From NCBI GenBank assembly GCA_009886115.1, contig VFJJ01000060.1, positions 1 to 42,386 on the forward strand: DNA of 42,386 nucleotides. Direction: 5' to 3'. The translations under genes were made by a program, and so were the position numbers. Source of the DNA: Actinomycetota bacterium. Its GTDB lineage: Bacteria > Actinomycetota > Acidimicrobiia > IMCC26256 > VFJJ01. Below the pieces are notes generated by a model. That model was not told the origin of the DNA, did not search any database, and was given only the letters and a program-made list of their open reading frames with translations. Of this stretch, positions 29,773 to 33,235 are shown piece by piece. Numbering within the stretch: the stretch's first letter is position 1; the number at the start of each line of letters is the position of its first letter.

Positions 29773-30525
29773 TCAGCGCTCTTCCCAGCGGAACAGACGC
29801 GACGTCACGACGGGGGTGGCGATCGTCCAGGCTGCGAGCACGATGAGGCTCCAGCTGGGCACGTCGGCGCCGTCGGTGAGGACGCCACGGAGGCTCTCCG
29901 ACAACGCTGCGCCGGGAAGGGCCTGCGCGACGAGCTCGACGGCCCGGGGCATCTGCTCGAGGGGGTAGGCCATGCCACCAATGGCCGTGAACACGAGATA
30001 CAGGCCGTTGGCCAGGGCCAGGGTCGCTTCGGCTCGGAGCGTGCCGGCCATCAGGAGACCCAGGGACGCGAAGGCGACCGTCCCGGCGACGACGAGCCCG
30101 AGGGCCGGGACGATCCCGGCAGCGTCGGGACGCCAGTCGAGCGCCACCGCTGTGACGACGAGCACCACGATCTGCAGGGCCTCGATGGCCAGGACCGACG
30201 TGATCTTGGCGGCGAGCAGTCGTCCCCGGGTGAGCGGCGATGCTCCCAGGCGTTTCAGCACGCCGTACCGGCGCTCGAAGCCCGTCGCGATGGCGAGCGA
30301 GACCATCGCCGACGACATCACGGCCAGCGCGAGCACGCCCGGGGTGAGGAACTCGACCGGGGTCTCGACGCCGAGGTCGACGAAGTCGGCCTTCGAGAAG
30401 AAAGCCAGGATCCCGACCGGGATCACCAGGGCCACGAGGAGGCTCTCGCCCCGCCGCAAGGTGAGCGCCAGCTCGACGCGAACCTGCGCCAGGACCGACC
30501 GGGTCATCGACGCCGACGCGCTCAC
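29773..30525 (-). CDS. ABC-2 type transporter permease
   Basis: This 250-residue membrane protein has six predicted helices. Characteristic segments: RRGESLLVALVIPVGILAFF, GVLALAVMSSAMVSLAIATGFERRYGVLKRLGASPLTRG (the ABC-2 cytoplasmic loop), GGMAYPLEQMPRAVELVAQALPGAALSESLRGVL. It overlaps the ATPase gene by 4 nt. ABC-2 exporters of this type lie near heme A/O synthesis genes in several actinobacteria; the substrate is unknown. Confidence 0.9.
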   Translation of the reverse strand: MSASASMTRSVLAQVRVELALTLRRGESLLVALVIPVGILAFFSKADFVDLGVETPVEFLTPGVLALAVMSSAMVSLAIATGFERRYGVLKRLGASPLTRGRLLAAKITSVLAIEALQIVVLVVTAVALDWRPDAAGIVPALGLVVAGTVAFASLGLLMAGTLRAEATLALANGLYLVFTAIGGMAYPLEQMPRAVELVAQALPGAALSESLRGVLTDGADVPSWSLIVLAAWTIATPVVTSRLFRWEER

Positions 30526-31451
30526 TTGAGCGCCCCGTCGTTGGTGAGACGGAGGAAGACCTCTTCGAGCGTGCGCCGTCCCGCCCGGAGATCGCCGATC
30601 GGCTCGTCGCGGTCGCGCAGCCAGCAGGCCAGGTCGGCGACCAACGCCGGGGTGGCCTCGGCCACGATGCGGTACTGCCCGGGCTCGTCCTCGACGATCG
30701 CATCGACGGCCATTGCCAGCGCACCGGCCAGCGAGTCGCGATCGAGCCCCGGACGGGCCGAGAAGCGCGTCTCGCTCGAGGCCAGACCGGCCCCGAGCTC
30801 GCCCGGGGCGCCCAGGGCCACGAGGCGACCCTGATCGACGATCGCCACCCGGTCGCAGAGCCGTTCGGCCTCGTCCATGAAGTGCGTCGTGAGCAACACG
30901 GTGGCGCCGCCGTCGGCCAGGCTGCGCACGAGCTCCCAGGTCCGGGTACGAGCGTGGGGATCCATCCCGGCGGTCGGCTCGTCGAGGAAGACGAGCTCGG
31001 GACGGCCGACGAGTGCGAGGGCGAGCGCCAGGCGTTGACGTTGGCCGCCCGAGAGGCGACGCACATGGCTCGAGGCCACGTCGGTGAGGCCCACGAGCTC
31101 GAGCAGACCCTCGGGCGACTCGGGCTCGGCGAAGAACCCGGCGTACTGGCGCAGCACCTCATGGGCCTTGATCCCGGGGTACAGCCCGCCGTCTTGGAGC
31201 ATGACGCCGACGCGGGGCTTGAGCGCGCGCCCGTCACGCCACGGATCGAGCCCCAGGACCTGTACCGACCCCGCGTCGGGCCGGCGGAAGCCCTCGAGGA
31301 TCTCGACCGTCGTCGTCTTGCCGGCGCCGTTGGGTCCGAGCAGACCGAACACCTCGCCGGGCGCGACCGTGAACGACAGGTCGTCGACGACGGCCCGTTC
31401 TCCGTAGCGTTTGGAGAGGTGATCGACGACCACCGCCGCCTCGACCGGCAC
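30522..31451 (-). CDS. ABC transporter ATP-binding protein
   Basis: This 309-residue ATPase powers the permease encoded after it. Walker A is GPNGAGKTT, the signature LSGGQRQRLALA, Walker B LVFLDEPTAGMD, the switch His in LLTTHFMDEAE. A DrrA-like C-terminal domain of about 90 residues follows. I start it at GTG 31451 (VPVEAAVVVDHLSKRYG): a TACGCT -10 box lies 8 nt upstream; a GTG at 31502 would place that promoter inside the gene. Confidence 0.9.
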   Translation of the reverse strand: MPVEAAVVVDHLSKRYGERAVVDDLSFTVAPGEVFGLLGPNGAGKTTTVEILEGFRRPDAGSVQVLGLDPWRDGRALKPRVGVMLQDGGLYPGIKAHEVLRQYAGFFAEPESPEGLLELVGLTDVASSHVRRLSGGQRQRLALALALVGRPELVFLDEPTAGMDPHARTRTWELVRSLADGGATVLLTTHFMDEAERLCDRVAIVDQGRLVALGAPGELGAGLASSETRFSARPGLDRDSLAGALAMAVDAIVEDEPGQYRIVAEATPALVADLACWLRDRDEPIGDLRAGRRTLEEVFLRLTNDGALK

Positions 31452-31459
31452 GGCCGGGG

Positions 31460-31465
31460 AGCGTA
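31460..31465 (-). promoter_or_regulatory. -10 box of the ABC exporter operon (leaderless)
   Basis: TACGCT on the minus strand, 8 nt before the GTG at 31451. Same hexamer as at prcB and vapB. Confidence 0.45.
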
Positions 31466-31573
31466 GCCAGCTCGACGCCACAACCTCGTTCTGTGTCTCC
31501 ACGACCTCAACAGGGCCTGGAAACCACGCGTCACCCGACCGGAGCGGCCGCGCCGGCCATCGGTGAACCGGGG

Positions 31574-31579
31574 TAGGTT
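31574..31579 (+). promoter_or_regulatory. -10 box of the AhpC/TSA_2 gene (leaderless)
   Basis: TAGGTT lies 6 nt before the ATG at 31586. It fixes the translation start 51 codons upstream of the in-frame TGA and so argues that the sequence before the TGA is expressed as part of this gene. Confidence 0.5.
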
Positions 31580-31585
31580 CTCGCC

Positions 31586-32206
31586 ATGACAGATCGAGCT
31601 GGAGCCCATCGGCTGCTGAGCGTCGGCCGGGCCCTGTCCGACATCACGATCCTCGACGCCCACGGCACCCCGGTGGACGTGGCCTCGTTGGCTCGGCCCG
31701 GCCAGGCGCTCGTGGTCGTTGCCATCAGGTACTACGGCTGAATCCCCTGCCAGGAGTACCTCGTGCAGGTACGCCACCGGGCAGCCGAGCTCATCGAGAC
31801 CGGCGCGAGCGTCGCGGTCGTCGCGACCGGGGCCGACTGGCAGGCCCAGCGCCTCATCGACGACGGGTTCCCCTTCCCGTGCCTGGTCGATCCCGACGCC
31901 CGGCTGTACGAGGCCATGGGCATCACGCGCCTCACCTGGCGTTCGGTGTTCAACCTCCGCAACTGGCGGAACTACCTCCGGGCCCGGCGAGCCGCTCGCC
32001 ACGATGGGATCGGCCAAGGCGAGGTCACCGGAGACTGGAAGCGGCTCTCGGGCGTGCTCGTGGTCGACGGCGCCGGCGTCGTCCGCTTCATCCACCGGGC
32101 CCGCGCGCTGGGCGACTATCCCCCGGTGAGCGAACTCATCGACACCGTTGTTCGTCTCGACGAGCGCGCCACCCGCAGAACCGGATGGGAGGAACGGGAA
32201 CGGTAA
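31586..32206 (+). CDS. AhpC/TSA_2 (PRXL2/SelenoU-like) peroxiredoxin-family protein, probable selenoprotein with in-frame TGA
   Basis: One frame of 206 residues runs from ATG 31586 to TAA 32206, interrupted only by TGA at 31739-31741 (codon 52). The TGA sits exactly where the family has its first redox Cys: RYYG-U-IPCQEYL, giving a UxxC motif with Cys55. The part before it (DITILDAHGTPVDVASLARPG, ALVVVAI) is the expected thioredoxin-fold beginning; after it come FPFPCLVDPDARLYEAMGI and GDWKRLSGVLVVDGAGVVRFIHRAR, typical of AhpC-TSA_2. A SECIS-like hairpin follows at 31760-31781. Expected role: thiol/selenol peroxidase or oxidoreductase in the cytoplasm. Alternatives are a point-mutated pseudogene, a sequencing error (one base from TGC/TGT), or re-initiation at GTG 31763, which has AGGAG 6 nt upstream. 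No Sec machinery is in the window. Confidence 0.72.
31760..31781 (+). promoter_or_regulatory. SECIS-like hairpin downstream of the in-frame TGA
   Basis: Bases 31760-31766 pair with 31773-31781 (seven pairs, one of them U-G, with single-base bulges at 31774 and 31778) around the loop AGGUAC. The loop begins 25 nt after the UGA and has G at its second position; both fit the bacterial SECIS rules as I recall them. A competing fold pairs 31746-31750 with 31765-31769. Hairpins are common in GC-rich DNA, so this is supportive, not decisive. Confidence 0.4.
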
Positions 32207-32209
32207 GGT
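32204..32209 (+). promoter_or_regulatory. Possible -10 box of glpX overlapping the preceding stop codon
   Basis: TAAGGT contains the TAA stop of the AhpC/TSA_2 gene; the glpX ATG is 33 nt further on with GGAG upstream. Confidence 0.3.
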
Positions 32210-32242: not shown

Positions 32243-33235
32243 ATGGAACTACGCCCCACCATTCCAGACCGCAACCTGGCGATGGAGCTCGTCAGGGTCA
32301 CCGAGGCCGCAGCGATGGCGGCCGGGCGCTGGATGGGCCGCGGTGACAAGAACACGGCCGACCGGGCGGCCGTCGACGCCATGCGCACGCTCCTCAACAG
32401 CGTGCAGATGCACGGCGTCGTCGTGATCGGCGAGGGCGAGAAGGACGAGGCGCCCATGCTGTTCAACGGCGAAGAGCTCGGCGACGGCACCGACCCGTCG
32501 TGCGACATCGCCGTCGATCCGATCGACGGGACCACGCTCACCTCGTTGGGCCGTCCCAACGCCGTCTCGGTGATCGCGCTCGCCGAGCGGGGAACCATGT
32601 TCAACCCGGGTCCGTGCGTGTACATGGACAAGATCGCCGTGGGCCCCGACGCCGCCGACGTGATCGACATCAACGTACCGGTGATCGACAATCTCCGGGC
32701 CGTCGCCCGGCGCCTCGACCGCAACGTCGCCGACCTCACCGCCGTCATCCTCGACCGCGACCGTCACGCCGGCATCATCAGGGAGTGCCGGGAGGCCGGT
32801 TCCCGTATCCGGCTCATCCCCGACGGTGATGTCGCCGGCGCCATCTCCGTTGCCTGGCCCGACTCGGGTGCCGACATCCTCTTCGGGATCGGCGGCACGC
32901 CCGAAGGGGTGATCGCCGCCTGTGCGCTCAAGTGCCTCGGCGGGAACATCCAGGGCAAGCTCTGGCCCCGAAACGACACCGAGCGCCAGGCCGCACTCGA
33001 CGCCGGCTACGACCTCGATGCCGTGCTGACGATCGACACGCTCTGCAGCGGCGACGACATCTTCTTCTCGGCCACCGGGATCACCGACGGCGACCTGCTC
33101 CAGGGCGTGCGCTACTTCGGCGGCGGCGCCACCACCCACTCGCTCGTGATGCGCTCGCGCAGCGGCACGATCCGCAAGATCGAGAGCACGCACCACTGGC
33201 ACAAGGTCCAGCAGTACCCGCCCGTCGTCGTGTGA
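32243..33235 (+). CDS. glpX: Fructose-1,6-bisphosphatase class II
   Basis: This 330-residue gluconeogenic phosphatase, the main FBPase type in actinobacteria, hydrolyses fructose 1,6-bisphosphate. Metal and substrate sites: [34 protein letters not shown] (Li-sensitive phosphatase motif), [36 protein letters not shown]. The C-terminus [10 protein letters not shown] is also usual. The ATG at 32243 follows CGGAGTCCCC. Divergence of function from phosphofructokinase, encoded 1 kb away on the other strand, is a natural pairing for glycolysis/gluconeogenesis control. Confidence 0.95.

Follow-up and report, generated by a model that had tools for sequence, protein, structure and literature searches.

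A predicted selenoprotein of the PRXL2/SelL kind in an Acidimicrobiia genome, with relatives carrying selenocysteine or cysteine at the same position

The gene at the centre of this analysis very probably encodes a selenoprotein, in which the in-frame UGA at codon 52 is recoded as selenocysteine (Sec) within a thioredoxin-fold enzyme related to PRXL2/PGF synthase and SelL. It lies in the window, the whole stretch of 42,386 nucleotides analysed here, which forms contig C27 of a draft genome of 5.4 Mb in 224 contigs, with a completeness of 95.6%. An initial annotation made from the sequence alone had already read the TGA as Sec, and this reading is now supported by the Sec machinery of the genome, by the TGA or Cys codons found at the same column in relatives, and by SECIS hairpins in the family.

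The gene is a frame of 206 codons closed by TAA (32204-32206), and the TGA is its sole interruption. The Sec-read protein runs MTDRAGAHRLL...VVVAIRYYG-U-IPCQEYL..., and the frame, the single break and the UIPC motif are all as originally described. The G+C content at the three codon positions is 0.73/0.51/0.84 before the TGA and 0.74/0.49/0.88 after it. Because these values are alike on either side, both halves are coding, in agreement with the earlier view that the part before the TGA is genuine coding sequence. Moreover, the alignment of relatives to the window protein continues through the TGA, spanning roughly residues 10-195. Standard annotation would give a 51-residue fragment or a false start past the TGA, as with most selenoprotein genes. 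The upstream neighbour is a divergent ABC-transporter ATPase gene (30522-31502, minus strand), and the downstream neighbour is glpX (32243-33235, plus strand), which starts 36 nt past the stop of the selenoprotein gene. The stop TAA also begins TAAGGT (32204-32209), which resembles a -10 box and lies about 34 nt upstream of glpX.

The start codon had been regarded as fixed by a leaderless -10 box. The box TAGGTT, of the TANNNT type, begins 12 nt before the ATG. Such a placement is rare, as only five of the 777 ATGs of the window have a TANNNT box that starts between -13 and -11. The same spacing is found at two of 14 other gene starts checked (L002 and L019), and a box at -13 or -14 at three more. 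The scan for sigma-70 promoters, which does not cover -10-only promoters, found none. The position of the box is compatible with a leaderless start, short of proof.

Table 1 Features of the selenoprotein gene and its flanks in the window.
Feature	Position	Strand	Basis
Selenoprotein gene, PRXL2/SelL-like thioredoxin-fold oxidoreductase (predicted)	31586..32206	+	Frame, profile matches, alignment, AF2 model
TGA codon 52, probably read as selenocysteine, catalytic residue	31739..31741	+	Same-column TGA or TGC/TGT in relatives
Cys55, partner in U-x-x-C, proposed resolving thiol	31748..31750	+	Invariant in both homologue alignments
Cys99, possible third redox thiol	31880..31882	+	RYYGUIPC-group alignment and Chloroflexi L082
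Putative bacterial SECIS hairpin	31747..31784	+	z -0.94, weak alone; conserved hairpin in family
TAGGTT, -10-like box placed for a leaderless transcript from the ATG	31574..31579	+	Inference

The initial annotation had assigned both flanks of the TGA to AhpC-TSA_2. Three Pfam families pass their cut-offs, namely AhpC-TSA_2 (PF13911; residues 66-173, 47.9 bits against a gathering score of 27), AhpC-TSA (PF00578; residues 13-122) and Redoxin (PF08534; residues 14-114). AhpC-TSA_2 is confined to residues 66-173, and upstream of the TGA the matches come from the other two families. The SelenoU/PRXL2 label is retained in so far as the protein is PRXL2-type, with the correction that, among named proteins, PRXL2B/PGF synthase and the SelL-related proteins are its nearest relatives. 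The AF2 model, built on a 27-row alignment of the window protein and locus proteins, has a pLDDT of 92.9 and a pTM of 0.88. The best solved relative by profile is human prostamide/PGF synthase (9us9), matched over its full length with an E-value of 1e-16; in the fold search, the double Cys mutant of the same enzyme ranks second, among peroxiredoxins. The residues conserved at the would-be peroxiredoxin motif are R48, G51, U/C52 and C55, and judged by this sequence the protein is not a canonical peroxiredoxin. Because it matches PGF synthase and the SelL-related family NF040769 and lacks the TxxC/TxxU motif, it is best described as a thioredoxin-fold oxidoreductase with a UxxC site, of the PRXL2/SelL kind.

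In the mechanism that we propose, SelB with Sec-tRNA(UCA) would recode the UGA of codon 52, aided by the hairpin just downstream, and give a 206-residue protein in which Sec replaces the catalytic Cys of the thioredoxin-fold enzyme. The selenolate of Sec52 would attack a peroxide or another oxidised substrate, Cys55 would resolve the intermediate as an Se-S bond within U-x-x-C, and a thioredoxin-type reductant would restore the Sec52/Cys55 pair. A peroxide has slightly better odds as the substrate than the alternatives, as generic peroxiredoxin families match the protein and peroxiredoxins abound in the fold search. It is nevertheless quite conceivable that the selenoprotein acts on a different kind of substrate, as PGF synthase or ResA-like proteins do, and reduces an endoperoxide-like compound, a sulfoxide or a protein disulfide. 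The PxxxTxxC signature is missing, with RYYGU in its place, the best solved match is itself a CxxC reductase, and ResA-type CxxC reductases also match the window protein by profile. This alternative concerns the substrate only, so it is compatible with recoding of the UGA.

The alignment of homologues bears directly on that recoding. Among 60 relatives, six other genomes from several families of the same order carry AIRYYG-U-IPC with TGA at the exact column, and one (G005, L025) carries TGC in PRYYGCLPC. Over the loci compared, TGA stands at the column in L019-L024, L052-L054, L080 and L082, and TGC or TGT in L025, L051 and L055. The comparison with homologues suggested earlier thus yields independent genomes with TGA at codon 52 and others with a Cys codon, which means that the in-frame TGA falls where Cys homologues have a conserved functional Cys, as in selenoproteins. 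In the eight-row alignment, R48, Y49, Y50, G51, U/C52, P54 and C55 are invariant. All seven Sec members in the RYYGUIPC alignment have Cys99, as does the Chloroflexi locus L082, and the Cys homologue lacks it; by this pattern, Cys99 could be a third redox thiol.

Strong matches occur in 37 of 395 genomes of the class, mostly with TGA and in some cases with TGC or TGT, and among 396 genomes of the phylum the matches outside the class again include both Sec and Cys forms. In addition, named genomes were scanned with a DNA pattern, the RYYGUIPC codons with TGA. The pattern matched metagenome-assembled genomes labelled Acidimicrobiia, Acidimicrobiales or Actinomycetota and one from Chloroflexi, and the proteins of L079, L081, L083, L084, L085 and L087 are identical to those of same-order relatives, which would put the window in the Acidimicrobiia. 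A match in Pseudoflavitalea (L086) was discarded as a chance match. Sequence reading places an ilvC-like gene, with ilvN/ilvB-like neighbours, on the opposite strand near the selenoprotein gene in L079, L083 and L084. The gene neighbourhood, with glpX in the window and the ilvC-like gene near these three relatives, gave no functional clue.

For 49 homologues (37 Sec, 12 Cys), a maximum-likelihood tree calculated with the Sec column masked needs seven changes between Sec and Cys, six of which are forced by well-supported branches. The nearest homologues of the window protein are only 40-47% identical to it, and the tree gives it no settled position among them.

Most Sec forms share a hairpin whose loop, AGUU or AGUUG, begins about 25 nt past the UGA, for example CCUCGCGC-AGUU-GCGCGAGG. 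The family thus has a SECIS hairpin just past the UGA, with a G in the small apical loop, as expected for bacterial selenoproteins. In a loop-specific test, the hairpin beats at least 95% of synonymous shuffles in 24 of 31 Sec forms and in none of 10 Cys forms; the test was devised after the hairpins had been seen, so the size of this effect should be read cautiously. Plain minimum-free-energy z-scores separate the two forms weakly (-0.57 for Sec against 0.04 for Cys). The signal can also be read from a synonymous codon. The Leu at position +10, counted from the Sec, is encoded by TTG in 20 of 21 Sec forms and in none of seven Cys forms, against a background of 9.3% TTG among the other Leu codons of the same Sec genes (binomial 5e-20, Fisher 7e-6, with relatives treated as independent). 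Including added loci, which were not used in finding the rule, the counts become 26 of 27 and 0 of 9, and all six tree-independent Sec/Cys pairs agree (p 0.031, the minimum possible with six pairs). The marker was followed over L001, L002, L019-L037 and L051-L082. As a simple codon marker, TTG at Leu+10 could find further Sec genes of the lineage.

The window copy is an outlier, having Val (GTA) where Leu (TTG) stands in the Sec forms. Its hairpin, GUACCU-CGUGC-AGGUAC, has the loop at 31762-31766, 20 nt past the UGA, lies within a longer stem and keeps GU in the loop, and 9% of synonymous shuffles are as good. The initial annotation had proposed a SECIS prediction over 31736-31800; the signal there is strong in the family and weak in the window, where the hairpin is an atypical variant for its close group and of little weight on its own. 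The Rfam scan of the window gave no match, as expected for a SECIS that is not curated.

The genome that carries the window has the complete Sec machinery, as the initial annotation had required of the host. The tRNA-Sec scores 66.2 bits (gathering score 47) and is called by ARAGORN as tRNA-SeC with anticodon TCA; selA scores 458.7 bits, selB, directly downstream of selA on the same contig, about 320 bits, and selD, in its Cys form, 398 bits. With selA, selB, selC (tRNA-Sec) and selD all present, the genome is equipped to make a bacterial selenoprotein, and from its sequence we would expect Sec to be inserted at the window UGA in a SelB-dependent manner.

Two further genes of the same genome carry TGA at catalytic sites. 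One is a paralogue (L002:616-1158, minus strand; G000 contig C92:643-1146) with RHFG-U-LLCREH, whose group mostly has Sec, with Cys in some relatives (L027, L028, L032). The other is a homologue of the formate dehydrogenase alpha subunit (L089; G000 contig C80:17964-19832, minus strand), with an in-frame TGA in SCNRT-U-HAP, the classical Sec position of FdhA (the UHxP site). Past this TGA by 18 nt, L089 has the sequence GGUCU in the context GUCGUC-GGUCU-GGCGAC; in the E. coli fdhF SECIS, GGUCU forms the apical loop.

These observations leave little room for a sequencing or assembly error, or for a gene decaying into a pseudogene after a nonsense mutation in its catalytic Cys codon. The window comes from a single draft genome, one base separates TGA from TGC or TGT, and the local hairpin is weak, but an accident of this kind is very unlikely given the independent genomes from several families that share TGA at this codon, the second and third TGA genes of this genome, its full Sec machinery and a coding signal undisturbed on both sides of the TGA. 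Equally hard to credit is the idea that the UGA acts as a stop or in regulatory readthrough, with a 51-residue peptide as the main product and the downstream part separately started. An ORF from GTG 31763 exists and Sec insertion always competes with termination, yet the active site lies where the two halves join to make up a single domain, and the Cys homologues are unbroken. That TGA is read as another amino acid under an altered code is the least credible proposal, as nothing beyond the open frame speaks for it. Against it, the frame of the paralogue L002, as aligned, is closed by a TGA, and the genome has a specific tRNA-Sec whose anticodon is UCA.

The initial annotation had called the Sec machinery uncommon in this lineage. 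Of the 395 genomes of the class that were sampled, 279 have a tRNA-Sec above the Rfam cut-off, so that remark was wrong, while the prediction drawn from it, that the machinery would be present here, was right. An earlier survey had already placed the Actinobacteria among the selenoprotein-rich phyla (PMC1794560). Our results show that selenocysteine is in wide use across this class of actinobacteria, which has been little studied. Genomes as small as about 1 Mb (family f22) are among the carriers. Across draft genomes, tRNA-Sec accompanies 21 of 26 Sec forms against four of nine Cys forms (Fisher p 0.08), only a trend in genomes that are incomplete. Sec genes of three other families often end in TAG rather than TGA (L052, L056, L060-L062, L064, L065, L067 and L069), and it is possible that Sec genes avoid TGA as terminator.

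A 2026 review lists 119 prokaryotic selenoprotein families, among them Prx-like UxxC (PF00578), Redoxin UxxC (PF08534) and AhpC-TSA_2/cd02970 UxxS (PMC13188914). An entry for AhpC-TSA_2 (PF13911) with UxxC, or for the SelL-related family NF040769, is absent from its table (PMC13188914; PMC9312934). The review treats the same domain with a different Sec motif as a different subfamily (PMC13188914), and by this rule the window protein would count as a new subfamily. The branch may already be covered by the "Redoxin family UxxC" entry of that table (PMC13188914). On balance, we lean towards the view that Acidimicrobiia and some neighbours hold an uncatalogued, largely Sec-based PRXL2/SelL-like branch (RYYGUIPC, RYFGUAPC, RHFGUxxC) with its own SECIS signature, an AGUU-type loop that forces the rare TTG at Leu+10, and at least six exchanges between Sec and Cys. 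If so, the branch would offer a natural set of cases for testing why selenium is retained or lost by an enzyme. With Sec and Cys forms alternating among close relatives and the RNA signal readable from a synonymous codon, what the enzyme gains from selenium becomes testable.

Among known systems, human PRXL2B/PGF synthase (PDB 9us9, 9usa) has the same fold, and its CxxC aligns exactly on the UxxC; it differs in being an animal Cys enzyme with about 24% identity to the bacterial protein. The best curated match is the bacterial SelL-related redox protein family NF040769 of NCBIfam (full length, residues 18-187, E 6.5e-27), which all 27 aligned homologues match. The window protein scores 94.3 bits and by the curated rule stands outside this family because the cut-off is 120, while a sister group with RHLAULPC (L035) passes with 138.2 bits. 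The canonical Sec peroxiredoxins (TxxU) belong to the same superfamily, but their TxxU/PxxxTxxC motif is absent from the window protein, which has VAIRYYGU in its place. Vertebrate SelL and SelU are Sec-containing relatives through the family name only (SelL-related and PRXL2, respectively). SelL contains two Sec two residues apart (PMC3316567). Both vertebrate proteins depend on eukaryotic SECIS elements in the 3'UTR, unlike the hairpin just past the UGA described here. The bacterial Prx-like UxxC selenoproteins (PF00578/PF08534) likewise carry Sec in a UxxC motif at the catalytic position of the thioredoxin fold, and the AhpC-TSA_2/cd02970 selenoprotein has its Sec at the same catalytic position, but in a UxxS motif (PMC13188914).
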